A stretch of DNA of 41,272 nucleotides from an uncultured Mycoplasmatota bacterium (GTDB lineage Bacteria; Bacillota_I; Bacilli_A; RF39; UBA660), in the NCBI GenBank assembly GCA_948466315.1, contig CAOJZZ010000005.1, positions 1-41,272 of the forward strand, written 5' to 3'. Made by a program: the position numbers and the translations under genes. Below, in pieces: positions 1-39,937 of this stretch (positions within the stretch are counted from its first letter, which is position 1; the number at the start of each line of letters is the position of its first letter). The notes beneath the pieces are model-generated. The model saw only the letters and a list, made by a program, of their open reading frames with translations. It searched no databases and had not been told where the DNA came from.

Positions 1-410
1 CTATAAACAACATTTCCACAAACTAATTTACCCTCTGTTGTACTATTACAAGCAACTCCATCTGGCGAAGTTGAAGTAATACTTGCTAAATTTGCATCAA
101 CATCTCCTTTGTTTTGCACTGTCAATAAATAATTACACTTATCTCCAGGTTTTGATAATTTAATTGCATCTACTGTAACAGAATTATCAGTAACTGTTGC
201 ATTACCACAAGTAGTCGTACTAGTACCTGTTGATACTCCAGGTACTGTTCCCTTTGCCAATTTTATATCCCAGTTAAATGCACTTTGAGTAACTGTTCCA
301 AATCTAACATTTAACGAAGTACTCAATGCCGCATACGCAAGCGAAACTCCTGTTACTGCTACCAATAATGCTAAAATTGATACATACATACTTTTTCTAT
401 CCTTATTCAT
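1..410 (-). CDS. Secreted four-cysteine paralog, array copy 1 (partial)
   Basis: The first visible member of a tandem family; its C-terminal end lies beyond the left edge of the window. The start is the ATG at 408-410, preceded by GAGGAAGTGATAAA, a good ribosome site. The protein begins with a short basic stretch (MNKDRK), one hydrophobic segment and an AYA|AL signal-peptidase-I-like site. The mature part opens with the family pattern LxxxFGxxTQxxxxWDI. All four family cysteines are present in the visible part (in TCGNA, DKCNY, VACN and LVCGN). It is closest to the next copy, sharing IKLSKPGDKC and TSPDGVAC. The function is unknown. A secreted, disulfide-stabilised beta-rich surface or fibre subunit of TasA/SipW-substrate type is a guess based on the N-terminal pattern. 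Confidence 0.75.
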   Translation of the reverse strand, partial: MNKDRKSMYVSILALLVAVTGVSLAYAALSTSLNVRFGTVTQSAFNWDIKLAKGTVPGVSTGTSTTTCGNATVTDNSVTVDAIKLSKPGDKCNYLLTVQNKGDVDANLASITSTSPDGVACNSTTEGKLVCGNVVY

Positions 411-447
411 TTTATCACTTCCTCAATATCATATTTTCTAATTATAA

Positions 448-1035
448 TTAATCTTGTCCATATACTAATGTAAATCCTGCTCCTATATGCGTCACCTCCT
501 CATTAGAAACGTTAGGTAATACTTCATACGATACCACTAAATAAAAATTTGATACCCCATTAATTCTTTCCACCTTTTGCTCCCTACTAGTTAGAAGACT
601 AGTACCTGCACTATCATTAGCCAAACTATAGACAACATTACCACAAACTAATTTACCCTCTTCCATCCTATTACAAGCAACTCCATCTGGTGAAGTAGCT
701 GTAATGCTTGTCAAGTTTGCATCAATATCCCCTTTATTTTGAACTTCTAAAGGATATGTACATTTATCTCCTGGTTTAGATAACTTAATTGAATCAATAG
801 TAGCCGAACTATCAGTAACTGTTGCATTACCACAAACAGTTGTACCAGTACCAGATGATACACCAGCTACTATTCCACTATTTAATTTTATATCCCAATT
901 AAAAGAACTCTGTGTAACTGTTCCAAATTTAATCTTCAAAGATGTGCTTAATGCTGCATATGCCATTGAAACTCCAACTACAGCAACAACTAATGATAAA
1001 AGCGAAACATACATTACTTTCCTATCTTTATTCAT
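448..1035 (-). CDS. Secreted four-cysteine paralog, array copy 2
   Basis: A protein of 195 aa starting at the ATG at 1033-1035 behind AAGGAGAAAAGT. An in-frame upstream ATG at 1074 would overlap the preceding gene and has no ribosome site, so it was not used. Residues 1-6 are basic, 8-24 hydrophobic, and the signal cleavage is predicted after AYA (about residue 27). Cysteines sit at about 68, 92, 121 and 131, in the motifs VCGNA, DKCTY, VACN and LVCGN. The C terminus ends in the family pattern FTLVYGQ followed by one residue. There is no lipobox, sorting motif or C-terminal membrane segment, so the mature protein is probably released or assembled outside the cell. Function unknown. Confidence 0.8.
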   Translation of the reverse strand: MNKDRKVMYVSLLSLVVAVVGVSMAYAALSTSLKIKFGTVTQSSFNWDIKLNSGIVAGVSSGTGTTVCGNATVTDSSATIDSIKLSKPGDKCTYPLEVQNKGDIDANLTSITATSPDGVACNRMEEGKLVCGNVVYSLANDSAGTSLLTSREQKVERINGVSNFYLVVSYEVLPNVSNEEVTHIGAGFTLVYGQD

Positions 1036-1060
1036 ACTTTTCTCCTTAATATTTCTATTT

Positions 1061-1645
1061 CTAGGCATGTACAAAATTTAAAACAAAACCTGCTCTAGAT
1101 TGATTAATAGGTACACTACTAACATCTACTCCAGTATAAGAAACAACCAAATATACTGTCTTTGTTTGATTTATTCCTACTATTTGACTATCATCTAGCG
1201 CTATCTTTCCATCAACATCCTGTGCCAATTTATAAGTTAAATTTCCACATACCATTTTTGATTCAACTGAAAAGTCACACGCCACTCCATTAGGTGTTAC
1301 TGGTGTAATAGATCCCAATCTAGCAACAATTCCACCAAAATTTTCTACAACTAAAGCATAAACACACCGATCATCTGGCTTTGACAAAGTAGTAGTAGAA
1401 ATAGTAACAGAATCCTTAGTAACCGCAGCATTACCACAACTTCTCCCCGTTGAACTAGTCCCAAAAGCTTCTCCAGCAACTGTACCATCTTGAAAACCAA
1501 TATCCCATGTCAACGGCTTTTGTGTTACTTTCCCAAATTTAACACTTATAGTTGCCCCAAGTGCTGCATATGCAATTGATAAACATGCTACTATTACTAC
1601 TAAAGTTAAAATTGAAATATACATATTTTTACGTTCTTTACTCAT
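1061..1645 (-). CDS. Secreted four-cysteine paralog, array copy 3
   Basis: A protein of 194 aa with an ATG start at 1643-1645 after GTTAGGAAGGAAAAA. It has the same architecture as its neighbours: MSKERK, a hydrophobic segment, AYA cleavage site, FGKVTQ, WDIGF and four cysteines (SCGNA, DRCVY, VACD, VCGN). The linker before the first cysteine has the form GTSSTGRSCGNA, shared in outline with copies 4 and 5 but not copies 1 and 2. The last residues (FVLNFVHA) depart from the usual YxQ ending. It reads in the same direction as the other copies, with a 25-bp gap to copy 2, so cotranscription is likely. Function unknown. Confidence 0.8.
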   Translation of the reverse strand: MSKERKNMYISILTLVVIVACLSIAYAALGATISVKFGKVTQKPLTWDIGFQDGTVAGEAFGTSSTGRSCGNAAVTKDSVTISTTTLSKPDDRCVYALVVENFGGIVARLGSITPVTPNGVACDFSVESKMVCGNLTYKLAQDVDGKIALDDSQIVGINQTKTVYLVVSYTGVDVSSVPINQSRAGFVLNFVHA

Positions 1646-1675
1646 TTTTTCCTTCCTAACTATTTTTACCTAAAA

Positions 1676-2260
1676 TTACGATTGTGCATAACTAAGTGTA
1701 AATGCAGCCCCTGACTGAGTTGTATTCGTAGCATTCAAAGAAGCACCAGTATATGAAACAACCAAATAAACAGGAAGCGAAGCGCCTATTGCTAATAACC
1801 TATTACTTGCCAAAATAGTGTTACCTGAGCTATCACTAGTCAATTTATAAGTTAAATTTCCACATACCATTGTTGCTCCATTAGATGTACTACATGCAGT
1901 ACTATTGGGATTTTTCGGTGTAATACTGCTTAAAGTTGCAGCAATAGTACCACTATTCTTAATCGTTAAGGGATAAGTGCATTTATCCTCTGGTTTTGAC
2001 AAAGAAGTTGCAGAAACTGTAACTGTAGTAGCTGTAATTGTCGCATCCCCACAAACTCTACCAGTTGCACTTGTTCCAGCGGCTGTTCCTACAACAGTAC
2101 TACCTTGAAATCCTACATTCCAAGTCAAGGCATTTTGGGTAATATCCCCAAACTGAATATTAAGAGTTGCACTAAGAGCCGCATATGCTAACGACAAACC
2201 ACCCACAATTACTACTAATGTTAAAATTAAAATATACATATTTTTTCTCTTATAATCCAC
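1676..2260 (-). CDS. Secreted four-cysteine paralog, array copy 4
   Basis: A protein of 194 aa that starts with GTG at 2258-2260; the ribosome site GAGGTGA lies seven bases upstream. The N terminus MDYKRKNMYI aligns with copy 3, followed by the hydrophobic segment and SLAYA cleavage site. The mature region carries FGDITQNALTWNVGFQ, then GRVCGDA, DKCTYP, TACS and MVCGNLTYKLTSDS around the four cysteines. It is clearly closest to copy 5, sharing TQNALTWNVGF and TSATGR, which suggests a recent duplication of this pair. It ends in FTLSYAQS. Confidence 0.8.
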   Translation of the reverse strand: MDYKRKNMYILILTLVVIVGGLSLAYAALSATLNIQFGDITQNALTWNVGFQGSTVVGTAAGTSATGRVCGDATITATTVTVSATSLSKPEDKCTYPLTIKNSGTIAATLSSITPKNPNSTACSTSNGATMVCGNLTYKLTSDSSGNTILASNRLLAIGASLPVYLVVSYTGASLNATNTTQSGAAFTLSYAQS

Positions 2261-2294
2261 CTTATCTTCACCTCACATAATCATAATATCATTA

Positions 2295-2885
2295 CTACGA
2301 TTGAGCATAACTAAGAACAAACTTTGCACCTGATTGAGTAACAGCTGAACTATTCAACCCAGCACCTGTATAAGAAGCCACTAAATAAACAGTAAGAGAG
2401 GCCCCCGCATTCAATGTTGTATTGGCATTTATTGCTGTAGCACCACCGCTATCACTTGTTAATTTATAAGTAATATTACCACATACCATTGTAGCACCAC
2501 TAGCAGTAGCACAAGTTGTACTAGTAGGTTTAGTTGGTGTTATAGAACTAAGTCTAGCTGCAATACCACCACTATTTCTTATAGTCAAAGTATAAGTACA
2601 TTTATCACCTGGCTTAGACAAAGTAGTAGCCGCTACACTAACAGTACTAGCAGTAATAGTGGCATTACCACAACTCCTACCAGTAGCGGAAGTTCCAGCA
2701 GCAGCTCCTGCAGCAGAGGTTCCAGTAAACCCAACATTCCATGTTAAAGCATTTTGGGTAATACCAGAAAAAGAAATATTTAAAGTTGCACTAAGAGCCG
2801 CATATGCTACCACGATTCCTATTATTAACACTGAAACTATACAAAGAGCTATATTTAATACTTTTCTATTCTTAATAAACATCAC
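2295..2885 (-). CDS. Secreted four-cysteine paralog, array copy 5
   Basis: A protein of up to 196 aa. The start is ambiguous: GTG (2883-2885) and ATG (2880-2882) both lie inside or directly against a very strong Shine-Dalgarno (AAGGGAGGTGAT). The best-spaced codon, about eight bases after GGAGG, is an ATT. Domain order is the same as in the other copies: hydrophobic segment, VAYA cleavage site, FSGITQNALTWNVGF, then cysteines in SCGNA, DKCTY, TTCA and MVCGN. The mature sequence is unusually rich in Ala, Ser, Thr and Gly. It ends in FVLSYAQS. The 34-bp gap to copy 4 is consistent with one transcript. Confidence 0.78.
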   Translation of the reverse strand: MMFIKNRKVLNIALCIVSVLIIGIVVAYAALSATLNISFSGITQNALTWNVGFTGTSAAGAAAGTSATGRSCGNATITASTVSVAATTLSKPGDKCTYTLTIRNSGGIAARLSSITPTKPTSTTCATASGATMVCGNITYKLTSDSGGATAINANTTLNAGASLTVYLVASYTGAGLNSSAVTQSGAKFVLSYAQS

Positions 2886-2909
2886 CTCCCTTAAATAAAA
2901 TACTAATTT

Positions 2910-3506
2910 TTAATGTTGTCCATAAACAATAGTAAAACCAAAACCTGATTGTGAAAAATCACTTGTTGAACTAGTAGTACCTGAATACTCAGCAGTTAAC
3001 ACCACATTTCTAGTAGTAGCAGTACTTCCACTCTTAGCAGCCAAAACATTACCAACAGCAGGCTGAATACTACTAGTAGCAGAATCGTATCTCAATTTAT
3101 AAGTAATATTACCGCATATCATTGTAGAACCACTAGCAGTACTACACGTTGTACTAGAAGGTTTCCTTGGTGTAATAGAAGTAATTGAGGCTCCAAGCGT
3201 ACCATTATTTCTTACTTGAAAAGTATAAGAACACTTATCTCCACTCTTGGTTAATTTAACTTTAATTCCAGAAATAGTAGTTTTAGTAGCGGTAGCACTT
3301 CCACAAGTAACATTCGCATTAGTTGTAACTCCAGCAATACTCCCAGTATTAAACCCAACATCCCAAGTTAAAGCGGATTGAGTCAAATTACCAAATTGAA
3401 TATTCAAAGTTGTACTAAGAGCTGCATAAGCAACAGTCAACCCAACAACAAAAGCAATCAAAATACCAATAGTTATAAATAATATATTATAATTTCTTCT
3501 TTTCAT
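2910..3506 (-). CDS. Secreted four-cysteine paralog, array copy 6
   Basis: A protein of 198 aa, the copy nearest the upstream end of the array. The ATG at 3504-3506 follows AAAGGAG with nine-base spacing. The N terminus MKRRNYNILF differs from the other copies, but the VAYA cleavage site, FGNLTQSALTWDVGF and the four cysteines (VTCGS, DKCSY, TTCS, MICGN) are retained. A Ser/Thr-rich insertion (about residues 150-180) makes it slightly longer than its neighbours. The C terminus is FTIVYGQH. No promoter could be fixed with confidence in the 69 bp between it and the truncated gene upstream. Confidence 0.8.
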   Translation of the reverse strand: MKRRNYNILFITIGILIAFVVGLTVAYAALSTTLNIQFGNLTQSALTWDVGFNTGSIAGVTTNANVTCGSATATKTTISGIKVKLTKSGDKCSYTFQVRNNGTLGASITSITPRKPSSTTCSTASGSTMICGNITYKLRYDSATSSIQPAVGNVLAAKSGSTATTRNVVLTAEYSGTTSSTSDFSQSGFGFTIVYGQH

Positions 3507-12939: not shown

Positions 12940-13947
12940 TTAATTTGTCGGATTAAAGGAAGCATGTAAACTTTTATTAATTCCATTTCCAATAAGTAAA
13001 CCTAACTTATCAATCATAAAGTCAACTTCTTTTGGAGTAACCATTAAATTAGATTGAATAGGAGATAACACCTCATATATTAACTGCTTAAATTCATCCT
13101 CTGATAATTCACCAATCATTCCTAAGACTTTCTCTTTATCAAAAGAAGATAATTCTCTCTTTTCATCTCGATAATCTTGGTGCATTTCATCTACTAATTT
13201 TAAAGATGCCTTATTAGCATTATTAAGTTTAAAACTAAATTGTTTCAACATATATTGAAATGTATCACTTACTATAGTAACCGCATCAACAATAGTAGGT
13301 ACCCCTATAGCAATAACAGGAATTCCTAATGTTTTACTACTAACTTCTTTTCTATCATTACCTACACCACTACCAGGATGTATCCCACTATCAGTAATCT
13401 GAATTGTCTTATTAACCCTACTAATCGCAGATGAAGCCAAAGCATCAACTACTAAAACCATTTTAGCATCAGTCGTTTTAACTAAGCTTTCAATTAATTC
13501 CTTAGTTTCAATTCCTGTAACTCCCGTAACCTCTGGCTTAAAAGCTGCAACCTTCTGATAGCCATCCTCTACCTCACCTAAAGCAAACAAATACCTAGTA
13601 ACCAAAATATTTTCAACTACTTTCGGTCCCAATGAATCTGGTGTAGAATTACTATTTCCTAATCCAACTACTAAAATAGTATCTTCCTTTTCTATTTTAT
13701 AATCACTAAGTAAAAGTTTAAGTTCTTTAATAAAACGTTTTTCTACTAACTTATAATTATCTTTATCACTAACATCCTCAAAAGAAATAGTAATATATTT
13801 AGCCTTAGAAGAAGAATCATTAAAAAAAACTCGGTCAACAACAATCTTTCCATCTTCAAAATGTTCTCTAGGATACTTTTCATCAATTTTAGAATCAACA
13901 ATCAAATCAGTACGAACCTGAAATTTTGAAACATCAATACTATGCAT
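12940..13947 (-). CDS. gpr: GPR, germination protease for small acid-soluble spore proteins
   Basis: GPR degrades the DNA-protecting SASP of the spore core during germination and is made as a zymogen. The start is the ATG at 13945-13947 with AGGTGA upstream, giving MHSIDVSKFQVRTDL; an open extension further upstream is hydrophobic, runs across the rpsT start region and is not credible. The N-terminal VRTDL matches the propeptide region of Bacillus GPR. Strong family matches include VGLGNSNSTPDSLGP, GVTGIETKE, DALASS, DSGIHPGSGVGN and IGVPTIVDAVT. The length of 335 aa is slightly short of the Bacillus enzyme (about 370). It is divergent from rpsT, as in Bacillus. Confidence 0.95.
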   Translation of the reverse strand: MHSIDVSKFQVRTDLIVDSKIDEKYPREHFEDGKIVVDRVFFNDSSSKAKYITISFEDVSDKDNYKLVEKRFIKELKLLLSDYKIEKEDTILVVGLGNSNSTPDSLGPKVVENILVTRYLFALGEVEDGYQKVAAFKPEVTGVTGIETKELIESLVKTTDAKMVLVVDALASSAISRVNKTIQITDSGIHPGSGVGNDRKEVSSKTLGIPVIAIGVPTIVDAVTIVSDTFQYMLKQFSFKLNNANKASLKLVDEMHQDYRDEKRELSSFDKEKVLGMIGELSEDEFKQLIYEVLSPIQSNLMVTPKEVDFMIDKLGLLIGNGINKSLHASFNPTN

Positions 13948-13989
13948 ACAATCACCTAATATTATATTACCCAAAATATAAAAATTTAT

Positions 13990-14018
13990 TTGCTTTTTTA
14001 CATTTTTTTTGATAAAAT
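13990..14018 (+). promoter_or_regulatory. Promoter of rpsT
   Basis: TTGCTT and TAAAAT separated by exactly 17 bp. The predicted start site, near 14025, leaves a leader of roughly 20 bases before the S20 start codon with its GAGGTG ribosome site. Confidence 0.65.
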
Positions 14019-14047
14019 AAATGTGTTTATAAAAGTGAGGTGAAAAA

Positions 14048-14311
14048 ATGCCAAATATTAAAAGTGCTAAAAAACGTATGCGTTCTAACGAAAAAAAAGC
14101 AGGAGTAAATACACTAATAACTTCTAGTATGAGAACTGCCATTAAAAAATTCGAAAAAGAAGCAAAAACAGGAAATAAAGAAGAAGCAAGTAACAAATTA
14201 AACATTGCTATTCAAAGAATTGACAAAGCTATGTCTAGTGGTCTAGTTCATAAAAATAAAGCTGCTAGATTGAAATCAAGATTAACAAAAATGAACAATA
14301 ATATTAAATAG
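14048..14311 (+). CDS. rpsT: Ribosomal protein S20
   Basis: A protein of 87 aa, the usual length for S20, a primary-binding protein of the 30S subunit that contacts 16S rRNA. The start MPNIKSAKKRMRSNEKK and the closing segment (GLVHKNKAARLKSRL) are typical of the family, as is the three-helix, Lys-rich composition. The ATG follows GAGGTGAAAAA. It is one of the few plus-strand genes here, with its own promoter and terminator, and lies opposite gpr as in Bacillus subtilis. Confidence 0.97.
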   Translation: MPNIKSAKKRMRSNEKKAGVNTLITSSMRTAIKKFEKEAKTGNKEEASNKLNIAIQRIDKAMSSGLVHKNKAARLKSRLTKMNNNIK

Positions 14312-34322: not shown

Positions 34323-35021
34323 TCAAGAACCAAGTATCCAATTAATAATAGCCCGTTTTATTTGAAAATACTCTTCTTTTTCAAATTGCATATTAGCAAT
34401 ACAATATTTTTTATTAGCTATATGTGAACAAAAAATACACTCATATAAATCAAAACAATCTTGTATAAAAAAAGAATTACTAACTTTATTAGACCAAATA
34501 ACATTATAAGAATTACTACAATTAATTGAATCATCCACTCTAATACAAAAAGATGATAAAGTACTTCTTTGAGAAGCTAATAAAAACTCAACTTCTGAAC
34601 AAGAATCACAATAAATAATATTTTTAGAACTACTACAATTAGTACAATGATATACATTACAGCACCCATAAATAGTATCACTTAAAGAAACATTAGAAGA
34701 GTTACTAACTCTTTCTGTAGTGGTAAAATTAATACTTTGCCAAATACTAATTACTTGATCTAAACTATCTACTTTTACCTTTGGTAACATCCAACCAGTA
34801 TCATAATCTTTTTTTTCCATATTACTTTGTGTAATAAAAGAAGAAAAATGAATAGAATCAGCCCAAGTCATCTCGTTAGTAGTAGAATCAAATACTTTTT
34901 TAGGTAACTTTACATCAAATGCCATCTTTTCTAATATCTCCCCTAAAGAATAAGGATTATCACAAGAAAAAACATTACTAAAAATTTTTTGGATAATTTC
35001 TAACGCTTGTTCCCCCTTCAA
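34323..35021 (-). CDS. Cysteine-rich protein of unknown function, partner of the ATPase
   Basis: A protein of 232 aa. I favour the TTG at 35019-35021, eight bases after AGGAG; a GTG at 35030 lies inside the ribosome site. The first 110 residues look like a mixed domain (PYSLGEILEKMAFDVKLPKK). From about residue 118 there are 12 cysteines in an irregular series such as YGCCNVYHCTNCSSSKNIIYC, a run that continues with SCSEVEFLLASQ. The end is KKYCIANMQFEKEEY. From memory, a similar Cys-rich stretch closing with YCI-N-x-x-x-x-K-E-E-Y occurs in hypothetical proteins of candidate-phyla bacteria. Some Cys pairs could bind zinc. The start is two bases after the stop of the ATPase gene. Confidence 0.7.
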   Translation of the reverse strand: MKGEQALEIIQKIFSNVFSCDNPYSLGEILEKMAFDVKLPKKVFDSTTNEMTWADSIHFSSFITQSNMEKKDYDTGWMLPKVKVDSLDQVISIWQSINFTTTERVSNSSNVSLSDTIYGCCNVYHCTNCSSSKNIIYCDSCSEVEFLLASQRSTLSSFCIRVDDSINCSNSYNVIWSNKVSNSFFIQDCFDLYECIFCSHIANKKYCIANMQFEKEEYFQIKRAIINWILGS

Positions 35022-35023
35022 TA

Positions 35024-36859
35024 TTACCACTCCTCTCTGCTTGAAGAATTAACTTCTAAAATTTTCCGCAAAGAAACATTACCTAACTTAAATTCAAACT
35101 TTGCCGAATTTTTCTCTTCTTTATTAAAAATATCCCTATTAAAAACCTCTTCCACTCTAGGGAACCTTTTAAAATCTAATGTAGTTCCCTTCATTGCAGA
35201 CAATAAAACTCCCTTAACAGAAATTCTCACAACACATTCCCTATTTTTTAATTCAGTTAATAATTTAACCCTTTTTTCTAAAGAGTCAGAAAAAGCAATC
35301 TTCATTTTTAAATTATCTACTAATATACTAGCATCTCCTAAAGAAACACGAAATATATAATAATTAACTACATTAGCAAATATAGAATCTTTTAAAAAGG
35401 ATGAAATTTGATTAAAATACTGTTCTACTATAATTAAAGACACATTATACTTTCTAGACTCAGCCAAAAAACGAACTAAAATTGGATTTTCTACAGTTGC
35501 CACTTCATCAACTATAAACAAAATGTGTGAAGAAAAAGAATCTCCCTGAACTAAAGTAAATAATTGCTGCATCAAAAGCCCTGCTATCATTCTAGTAACC
35601 TTTTCTCCAAGTTTTACTCTATCTAATGAAAATAAAGTTAAAAAATTATCATCAATTGCCTCTTGTAAATTACTATTACTAATTTGATTATTAAAAACAG
35701 GCAACATCTCCATCTCATCAATAAAAGAAATAATAGGAGATATAGCTTCTGTATAAGAACGATTTTTTAACTCAACAAAATCATTAAGAAAAAACAAAAC
35801 TACACTAGATGGCAATACATCTTTTAATTTATTTATTAAATCAGTACGAAAAGTAACATCTAAAAGTAATTTTCTTAAAGAAGAAAAAGTAAAATCTTCA
35901 TCCATTAATAATAAATAAATGCTATGACGCAATACTCTTTCTAATTTAGAGTTATATAAATCAACAAGTAATGATTTCAAAAGTTCCAATAATAATTCAC
36001 AAGAAGAAACAGAATCTTCTTTTTTATTAATAAATAAATCAATACTATCCCCTCCACTTTTAAAATCAATCACCTTACCAATCCCACCAATATCTTTCTC
36101 CATTGAAGCATGTGGATCAATTACAACAACCTTATATTTACTAACTAAATCACAATTTTTATAAAGATTATAAATAAATGAACTAATAAACTTAGATTTT
36201 CCAGAACCACTAGAACCTATAATAATAGAATGTTTATCAAATTGATATGCATTTTGTTTTAAATAAAAGTCCCCCTGTAAATAAGGAAATGTATCAATTT
36301 TTAATAATGAATTTAATAAATCACTAGAAAAAATAGACAGATTTTTGCCAATATCCAAATACTTTGAGACACTTTTATATAAATATCTTACATTTTTAGA
36401 AAAATCAACTGACAAAACGAAACTCGGAACTGCAAACAATAAAGAACGTCTTATTATTTTTCCACCTATAGAAAAATACAAATCAATATGCCATTTTACT
36501 TTTTGTCTAGAAAAACTAAAAAAATCAAATTCAATACATTTTAATTTTCCCTTTCTTTTTACTACACAAAATTCTAATAAATCAATAATATTTTTTTCAG
36601 TATGAAAAGTAAGTGGCAATGAATAACTAATTCTAGGAATTTTTTTATAATTGATTTTTTTAAAAACAAAAGAAGATAAATTATTAATAGTAGGCGGTAA
36701 AAAACACTTAGTATATATAAAATATCGTATTTTATTTTTTGAAATTAACACAAAAATTTTCCAATTTCTAAATATTCCATTATAACTAGAAATAGTAGTA
36801 ACCAGTTGATCCCACTCATCCTTTGTTACAAAATTTTCTGTAAAATAAACCTCCGACAT
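35024..36859 (-). CDS. HerA/VirD4-TraG-like P-loop ATPase
   Basis: A protein of 611 aa with an ATG at 36857-36859 and a weak ribosome site. The first 200 residues are an unrecognised beta-rich domain with no clear membrane helix. The ATPase core has Walker A GSSGSGKS (215-222), VVVIDPHASM (245-254, a motif of HerA/VirD4-type DNA pumps), Walker B ILFIVDEVAT (446-455), ESRKYNVSLIIVEQ and FRVSLGDASILVDNL. Relatives translocate or process DNA. None of the usual conjugation genes (relaxase, VirB4, VirB6) is nearby. Translation is tightly linked to the Cys-rich protein downstream. The cellular role is unknown; this pair may be a stand-alone system. Confidence 0.82.
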   Translation of the reverse strand: MSEVYFTENFVTKDEWDQLVTTISSYNGIFRNWKIFVLISKNKIRYFIYTKCFLPPTINNLSSFVFKKINYKKIPRISYSLPLTFHTEKNIIDLLEFCVVKRKGKLKCIEFDFFSFSRQKVKWHIDLYFSIGGKIIRRSLLFAVPSFVLSVDFSKNVRYLYKSVSKYLDIGKNLSIFSSDLLNSLLKIDTFPYLQGDFYLKQNAYQFDKHSIIIGSSGSGKSKFISSFIYNLYKNCDLVSKYKVVVIDPHASMEKDIGGIGKVIDFKSGGDSIDLFINKKEDSVSSCELLLELLKSLLVDLYNSKLERVLRHSIYLLLMDEDFTFSSLRKLLLDVTFRTDLINKLKDVLPSSVVLFFLNDFVELKNRSYTEAISPIISFIDEMEMLPVFNNQISNSNLQEAIDDNFLTLFSLDRVKLGEKVTRMIAGLLMQQLFTLVQGDSFSSHILFIVDEVATVENPILVRFLAESRKYNVSLIIVEQYFNQISSFLKDSIFANVVNYYIFRVSLGDASILVDNLKMKIAFSDSLEKRVKLLTELKNRECVVRISVKGVLLSAMKGTTLDFKRFPRVEEVFNRDIFNKEEKNSAKFEFKLGNVSLRKILEVNSSSREEW

Positions 36860-36941
36860 TACCCCATAATAACTACCTCAAAATTAGTATACTAACATCA
36901 TTCTAAAGAAAACTGACTTTTCTCTAATCAATTAAATCAGT

Positions 36942-37739
36942 TTAACAAATTGGAACTAAAAAATCAGTAATGCCATCATGATAATATTCTAACTCTGGAA
37001 TGTGTCTTAATTTATATTTACAACTAGGCAAAAATTCATAATAAAATTGCTTGGAAACCCTCTGAATATCACATGCTTTTTTTGAATCAACATGAAAAAC
37101 CAACCACTGACTAGCAGGTATAACAAACTTAGAAAAACAATCAATCAGCTTTGTATACAAAATATAATAACCATCACATTTTAATCTATTAGAATCCGAA
37201 TAAGTAACCATTCCATAATCAATATTACCATATAAATCTAAATATTTATTTTCCATATCATTAAAAAATTTAGGAGCAATCATCCCTATATTATCATTAT
37301 TAACAGAAATACCCTTCCCATATAATACTAATTCGTCTAAAGTAACAATAGAATATTCAATATCTTTAAACATTAAAATTTCTTCATTAAAACTAATTCT
37401 AGGAAAATGTTTTAACTGACTATTCTTATCAACTTTACTAGGCTTAATTCCATGAAAAGAAGTAAATGCTCTAGAAAAAGAAGTTGCACTTTCATACTGA
37501 TACTTAATAGCAACATCAATAACCTTCGTCTTCTTACTATAGAAATCAAAACCAGCCTGAGACAATCTTCTTTTACGTATGTACTCAGAAACAGATAAAT
37601 TTGTCAATAAAACAAACACCTTCTTCATTGTAGAAGCATTAACACCCATAATCTTTGCTAGATCATTATAAAGTATTTTTTCCTCTAAATGCTCCTCAAT
37701 ATATTCTGTTATTTGATTTAAAGTCTGATAAATATTCAA
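36942..37739 (-). CDS. AraC-family regulator with GyrI-like effector domain
   Basis: A protein of 265 aa that starts with TTG (37737-37739) after AGGAGTGGTATT. Two helix-turn-helix motifs fill residues 1-100: YNDLAKIMGVNASTMKKVF, and IDVAIKYQYESATSFSRAF followed by HGIKPSKV. The rest is a GyrI-like/effector-binding domain (EYSIVTLDELVLYGKGI; GYYILYTKLIDCF). Such proteins bind small molecules and switch on transport or resistance genes. It lies 24 bp after the NUDIX gene on the same strand. The target is not visible. Confidence 0.88.
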   Translation of the reverse strand: MNIYQTLNQITEYIEEHLEEKILYNDLAKIMGVNASTMKKVFVLLTNLSVSEYIRKRRLSQAGFDFYSKKTKVIDVAIKYQYESATSFSRAFTSFHGIKPSKVDKNSQLKHFPRISFNEEILMFKDIEYSIVTLDELVLYGKGISVNNDNIGMIAPKFFNDMENKYLDLYGNIDYGMVTYSDSNRLKCDGYYILYTKLIDCFSKFVIPASQWLVFHVDSKKACDIQRVSKQFYYEFLPSCKYKLRHIPELEYYHDGITDFLVPIC

Positions 37740-39071: not shown

Positions 39072-39937
39072 TCACGCCTTACTTGATATTAATTTTATTA
39101 ATTCTCCCAACCCCCAAAAATTATTATTTTTATTTAAATAAATACCATATTCTATTGGAGCAAGTTCAATTCCTGTATCTAATTCTAAAATCCCACCACT
39201 TGCCACTTCAGATAAAACATACTCTGAAGTAACAACGCCAATGCTTTCAGTATTCTTTATAATTTCTATCATTGAAGAATAGGAAATATTACTTATTAAT
39301 TTAAAATCATTATCTCTAAGCATCAAACAATTATAAAAATTATAAACCGTTACTGAACATTTTCTAGGCAAATATATAGTCTTATTTTTAAGTTCATCTA
39401 TACTTAATTTTGTTCCCTTTAATAATGACTTACTAGAAACTATAAAAATATCATGCAACTCTCCAATTTTTATAAACTCTATCATCTCATTTTCATAATA
39501 TGGTACCCTTTTAGAAACAACTATATCAATTTCTTATTTTTCAAACTTTGCAAGCATTTCTAAAATATCTAAATTAATAATATTAACTTTTATACTTTCT
39601 TAACCGCATAATAATTAATCATTTTATTTCCAAATATTTTATCTAACATAGTATTATGTATTCCCATATTTATACTCTTAACCTTTTTATATTTATCATA
39701 AAAACCATCTAGTTCATGAACCTGTTTCTCTATTTTATTATATATAAAATTACCTTCTTCTGTTAACCCTATTCCATAATTTGACCAATCAATCAACTTA
39801 ACCTGTAATTGTTCTTCTAATTTTTTGATATGTTTTGATACAGCTGGTTGAGAAATATGCAACAGATTACTAGTTCTTGTAATATTTTTACAATCAGCTA
39901 CTACAACAAAAATATTATATAATTCTAAATATATCAT
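39072..39937 (-). pseudogene. LysR-family regulator, inactivated
   Basis: The N-terminal 115 codons are open from the ATG at 39935-39937: MIYLELYNIFVVVADCKNIT with the winged-helix motif LLHISQPAVSKHIKKLEEQL. The reading then stops after NYYAVKKV. Shifting one frame near 39590 restores NIINLDILEMLAKFEK, followed by an in-frame TAA near 39535, then EIDIVVSKRVPYYENEMIEF and the full effector-binding domain to 39072. So two lesions, one shift and one stop, break an otherwise complete 289-codon gene. It begins eight bases after the lysozyme gene. A functional LysR would control neighbouring metabolism or transport; no such target remains. Confidence 0.8.

Follow-up and report, generated by a model that had tools for sequence, protein, structure and literature searches.

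A small three-gene cassette of gut Bacilli comprising an AraC/GyrI-like regulator, a VirD4/TraG-HerA-superfamily ATPase and a cysteine-rich partner

We found that an AraC/GyrI-like regulator, a DNA-motor-type ATPase and a cysteine-rich (Cys-rich) protein form a small, previously unnamed three-gene cassette in gut Bacilli. The cassette is real and undescribed, and is assembled from known superfamilies. Its gene content, conservation, co-inheritance and mobility, and the association of its regulator with a conserved site, can be read directly at the sequence level. Our tentative interpretation, which we hold with somewhat less than even confidence, is that it is a horizontally mobile, inducible protective cassette.

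The cassette lies on the minus strand of the window, a stretch of 41,272 nucleotides from an uncultured Mycoplasmatota bacterium. The original prediction described two genes, and both are indeed open in the window, the ATPase gene (611 aa) at 35024..36859 and the gene for the Cys-rich protein (232 aa) at 34323..35021. It missed, however, the first gene of the cassette, at 36942..37739, which has a TTG start and encodes an AraC-family regulator with a C-terminal Cass2/GyrI-like effector-binding domain. Since orthologues of the Cys-rich protein begin with a methionine at residue 4 of the listed open reading frame (ORF), the TTG at 35021 is the probable start of its gene, which leaves the predicted two nucleotides after the ATPase stop. 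Linkage of the pair in other genomes, on which the original prediction had staked its case, was borne out by a neighbourhood survey, in which the two genes adjoin each other in all 40 loci (35 distinct sequences), as expected of a dedicated conserved unit. When the neighbouring proteins of these loci were clustered, the AraC/Cass2-GyrI-like protein was the sole other broadly recurrent cluster (34/40). In six loci no upstream regulator is seen, and at least two of these (L014 and L062) are cut by contig ends. Elsewhere it precedes the ATPase ORF, usually at a distance of 14-82 nt; in some loci the distance is 700-1,900 nt, with other genes in the gap. No family entry for the pair or for the Cys-rich protein was found in Pfam, NCBIfam or PADLOC, and a literature search returned no publication describing such a regulator/ATPase/Cys-protein unit.

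The ATPase contains the IDPH (VVVIDPHASM) and VDEVAT (FIVDEVATVEN) motifs ascribed to it earlier, as well as a Walker A motif (GSSGSGKSK) and KKYCIANMQFEKEEY; the catalytic motifs are invariant in nearly all of 35 ATPase sequences. An N-terminal alpha/beta domain (residues 1-165) precedes a P-loop motor (about 205-550) with an all-alpha insert (about 283-390). AF2 modelled the N-terminal domain as alpha/beta with pLDDT of about 80-90 in most blocks, and the motor poorly. In Pfam the protein exceeds the cut-off of DUF87 (PF01935; 26.6 bits versus 23.2, E-value 7.8e-6) over residues 208-250 only, and falls just below those of the TrwB, TraG-D_C and T4SS-DNA_transf profiles; TraG-D_C (PF12696) gave 18.9 bits versus 22 by hmmscan, and 22.5 in a six-frame search. 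No transmembrane segment was seen (maximum 19-residue hydropathy 1.41), consistent with a cytosolic enzyme.

Profile alignment by hhalign matched residues 205-548, the insert included, at 99% (23% identity) to TraM-recognition ATPases from B. subtilis plasmids, Staphylococcus plasmids and an ICE-like region of another genome (G146). The genome's own VirD4 (51%, E 1.6e-4) and VirB4 (88% over 106 columns) fitted much less well, and in that comparison the best fit was a Sulfitobacter plasmid ATPase (99%). The TraM-recognition ATPases of Bacillota plasmids and ICEs resemble the cassette enzyme in the motor domain with its all-alpha insert, and also in having a small dedicated partner gene directly after the ATPase gene. 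They are, however, larger (726-972 aa), being extended at both the N- and the C-terminal side, and the next or a near gene encodes a replication-relaxation protein (in part annotated, in part assigned by eye). No replication-relaxation gene adjoins the cassette ATPase, where the gene for the Cys/Ser-ladder protein comes next in every locus and a regulator stands in front. Judged from these alignments, the motor's nearest relatives are TraM-recognition ATPases, whose partners on plasmids and ICEs are replication-relaxation proteins, and not defence HerA. It is of VirD4/TraG-HerA type, and the membership tests do not place it firmly among coupling proteins proper or among HerA proteins.

The partner begins with a domain of about 105 aa that has many invariant positions, continues into a C-terminal ladder of Cys and Ser, and closes with KKYCIANMQF..EEY. 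The earlier count of 13 cysteines, 12 of them in the C-terminal half, was right. The series is, however, not irregular as was thought: Cys and Ser fall in a mod-3 register that repeats every 12 residues (z = 6.0 for C+S, 4.2 for hydrophobics and 5.3 for the whole profile). A 14-row alignment of the protein has 84% mean column identity. Neither does the protein read as a plain zinc protein, since Cys and Ser interchange at most ladder positions among 35 sequences. Four cysteines (C171, C198, C201 and C210) do not vary, and C192 and H203 vary rarely if at all (numbering of the 35-sequence alignment); these near-fixed residues could form one metal site or a structural cap. The ladder is probably a narrow beta-solenoid with 12-residue rungs, a fold deduced from the periodicity because AF2 gave no usable model (pLDDT 34.5). 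The nuclease site for which a search had been proposed did not appear: the protein has no nuclease motif and no Pfam match.

In the phages, plasmids, viral contigs and Bacillota sampled, the partner had no relative outside one Bacilli family. PDB sequence searches gave no useful match and no relative; tblastn against a phage collection gave nothing, or matches of 25% coverage at E 2 or worse; a plasmid collection gave nothing; and scans of viral contigs for the family, including motif patterns from the C-terminal ending that the original prediction ascribed to hypothetical proteins of candidate-phyla bacteria, found no relative. Nor did 395 Bacilli genomes yield the protein outside the family. 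A weak second profile match in G560 was to an unrelated 405-aa protein. Homology to phrog_15341, whose Cys-tripeptide repeat proteins share the three-residue Cys register, was also rejected: its strong members, in G329 and G702, are uniform xNC repeats, unlike the cassette protein, and the match reflects Cys spacing, a compositional likeness. These phrog_15341 proteins (L137 and L142 in G329, L138 in G702) consist of long stretches of such repeats, and the two similar copies in G329 adjoin a gene for a single-stranded-DNA-binding protein.

The regulator matches HTH_18 (51.3 bits versus a cut-off of 33.6, E-value 1.5e-13) and Cass2 (27.6 versus 27.0, 3.7e-6) in Pfam. GyrI-like domains are widespread, and with Cass2/GyrI-like/Rob-type AraC regulators the protein shares the combination of HTH_18 with an effector-binding domain that has an invariant Glu; E251 and Y253 are invariant in 29 of 29 regulator sequences. 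In contrast to those regulators, it heads a DNA-motor operon rather than accompanying an efflux pump or resistance enzyme. In a search of 283 genomes of the family, homologues of more than 50% identity sat at the cassette in 24, and just two genomes that have no cassette contained one (G380, and a truncated copy in G548), a distribution by which the regulator is dedicated to the cassette.

Between regulator and ATPase, at 36908..36942 on the minus strand, lies a conserved inverted repeat with a T-run (AACTGATTTAATTGATTAGAGAAAAGTCAGTTTTC in the window; AACTGAC-N17-GTCAGTT-T6). Directly upstream of the ATPase it reads AACTGAC-AAAAYTGATTNNTAAAAA-GTCAGTTTTTT, the arms of this inverted repeat being 7-8 bp long and its loop conserved too, and it is followed by an extended -10-like element. 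Of the 30 loci that have the regulator, 27 contain the repeat; it is missing from each of the 4-5 that do not (Fisher p 7.5e-4, taking 0/4 for the latter, with loci that are not independent). It could be simply the regulator's terminator. In L069, L072 and L082, however, the regulator is displaced and the repeat remains beside the ATPase, which points to an operator for activation upstream of the ATPase promoter; we therefore regard it as a putative operator, whether or not it also acts as a terminator.

The cassette is patchily distributed. Of 291 genomes of the one Bacilli family, 27 carry the ATPase; sampling of other families turned up no cassette, and 15 congeners lacking the ATPase gave no match to the Cys-rich protein. 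In close pairs dN/dS was 0.07-0.24 for the ATPase, 0.04-0.15 for the Cys-rich protein and 0.07-0.13 for the regulator, values by which all three are real proteins under purifying selection. Pairwise distances among the cassette genes correlate with each other (r 0.93, 0.80 and 0.75) and not with those of RecA, the sole host marker used (r -0.05, -0.02 and -0.11), and the AU test rejected the RecA tree for both the ATPase and the Cys-rich protein. Two genomes of one genus (G540 and G007) are 98% identical in RecA and 53% in the ATPase, whereas the distant hosts G372 and G564 are 75% identical in RecA, 83% in the ATPase and 91% in the Cys-rich protein. By these comparisons the cassette spreads horizontally as a unit. 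Co-transmission is strong rather than perfect, because the ATPase and Cys-protein data each reject the other's tree in the AU test.

The flanks vary between loci and include housekeeping genes such as those for CTP synthase, Ppx/GppA and UvrA; among the neighbours scanned there was no mobility gene, and no gene known to act in resistance or defence accompanies the cassette consistently. The idea of a self-mobile element bounded by terminal repeats was rejected, as the flanks beyond the regulator start and the Cys-protein stop share nothing obvious by eye. Deletion relics were found in two congeners. In G020 the first 38 residues of the regulator are left where its relative has the cassette, and in G437 the C-terminal 165 residues of the Cys-rich protein are the sole remnant. 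The G020 site (contig C1, L107 12886) is a deletion scar at which the first regulator codons run into part of the adjacent gene, which by eye is transglutaminase-like. These relics, with the discordant cassette and RecA distances, indicate repeated loss besides transfer, as is characteristic of a cassette that is useful under certain conditions.

Cass2 modules bind cationic drugs and transfer laterally (PMC3048380). Because the regulator's domain family has these properties, we favour a ligand-induced DNA motor with a solenoid partner. Where the original prediction considered stand-alone DNA uptake, segregation or defence, the AraC/GyrI sensor and the horizontal spread favour an inducible protective role. 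We infer the ligand, operator, DNA substrate, partner docking and benefit as follows. The effector domain of the regulator would bind a small molecule, which by analogy with Cass2/BmrR-type domains is probably amphipathic or cationic, and the ligand-bound regulator would activate the ATPase promoter via the conserved inverted-repeat site. The ATPase would then assemble into a ring and move along double-stranded DNA or remodel it, and the solenoid protein would dock on the ring as adaptor or effector. Motor and partner might thereby protect DNA or clear a DNA-bound threat, be it a DNA-targeting antimicrobial of gut competitors or incoming DNA. A more exacting form of this proposal, an undescribed machine of two proteins, induced by a chemical, whose VirD4/TraG-like translocase and obligate Cys/Ser-ladder beta-solenoid partner carry out DNA protection or defence that has no known counterpart, seems to us doubtful. 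In the cassette a conjugation-type DNA motor has been taken out of conjugation, tied to a partner resembling a solenoid and put under a regulator of drug-sensor type; if motor and partner do protect DNA, this would add to the uses known for the HerA/VirD4 superfamily. The conserved site, the dedicated regulator and the natural deletion relics make the cassette directly testable.

The main rival to ligand-induced protection is anti-phage or anti-plasmid defence, in which an ATPase ring would load its partner onto invading DNA. HerA loads NurA, DUF4297 or SIR2 partners onto DNA, and in the HerA-DUF4297, HerA-SIR2 and HerA-NurA pairs, as here, a HerA/FtsK-superfamily ATPase stands in tandem with a dedicated partner. 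HerA-DUF4297 is a precedent for defence of this type (PMC11291478). A patchy, horizontally spread and often lost cassette is typical of defence systems, and HerA-DUF4297 and HerA are the best Foldseek matches of the whole ATPase model, although weakly so (E 1.3e-3, TM 0.26); the AF2 model shows the N-terminal domain as alpha/beta and not clearly as a HAS-barrel. The partner, however, matches no NurA, DUF4297 or SIR2 family in Pfam, NCBIfam or PADLOC and includes no recognised nuclease or NADase; the flanks are mostly housekeeping genes and not a defence island; and an AraC/GyrI regulator of drug-sensor type is unusual for defence. PADLOC mad8/HerA matches were set aside as non-specific, since mad8 also matches the genome's own VirB4 (5e-22) and VirD4 (1e-10) and a neighbouring UvrA (3e-36), and no mad1-8 (MADS) locus was seen. 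On balance we think such defence unlikely, if a reading to be taken seriously.

The original prediction saw no relaxase or VirB partner, and in the window neighbourhood no relaxase, type IV secretion system (T4SS) gene, recognised nuclease or transmembrane segment was found beside or in the cassette. The absence of a secretion system holds locally only, because another contig of the genome (C2, L108 197-11783) has a T4SS-like locus with VirB6/TrbL-like, PrgI-like, VirB4, SpoIID-containing large-protein and VirD4 genes, named by eye with the exception of VirD4. The ATPase might serve this locus as an alternative coupling protein in DNA or protein export, with the Cys-rich protein as substrate or adaptor. 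Its motor falls in the VirD4/TraG branch, and it shares superfamily, Walker motifs and a borderline TraG-D_C segment with VirD4/TraG coupling proteins; the locus, however, encodes its own 767-aa VirD4, to which the ATPase aligns poorly, and the cassette enzyme has no transmembrane anchor, no T4SS or relaxase neighbours and flanks that change from locus to locus. We judge an export accessory improbable. Slightly less probable still is a decayed conjugative or plasmid remnant, a TraM-recognition ATPase that no longer has its replication-relaxation partner and survives as a relic, selfish or regulatory in nature. The company of the closest motors, which have a replication-relaxation protein adjoining or near, would suit such an origin, but decay fits neither the near-invariant catalytic motifs nor dN/dS of 0.04-0.24 across the cassette genes, the ATPase partner is conserved and is not a relaxase, and no terminal repeats were seen at the cassette edges.

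The T4SS-like locus on C2 is followed by RmuC- and TrpS-like genes, with no relaxase noticed, and may be a chromosomal, domesticated T4SS of the Bacilli family. Elsewhere in the window, a tandem array of six paralogous ORFs, each about 195 aa long, occupies 3-3506 on the minus strand; two were scanned and had no Pfam match. A LysR-type regulator at 39072-39937 appears to be split into two ORFs, one with the HTH part and one with the effector part, and is probably a broken gene. A germination protease (Peptidase_A25) is encoded at 12940-14205, which suggests spore-forming ancestry or ability.
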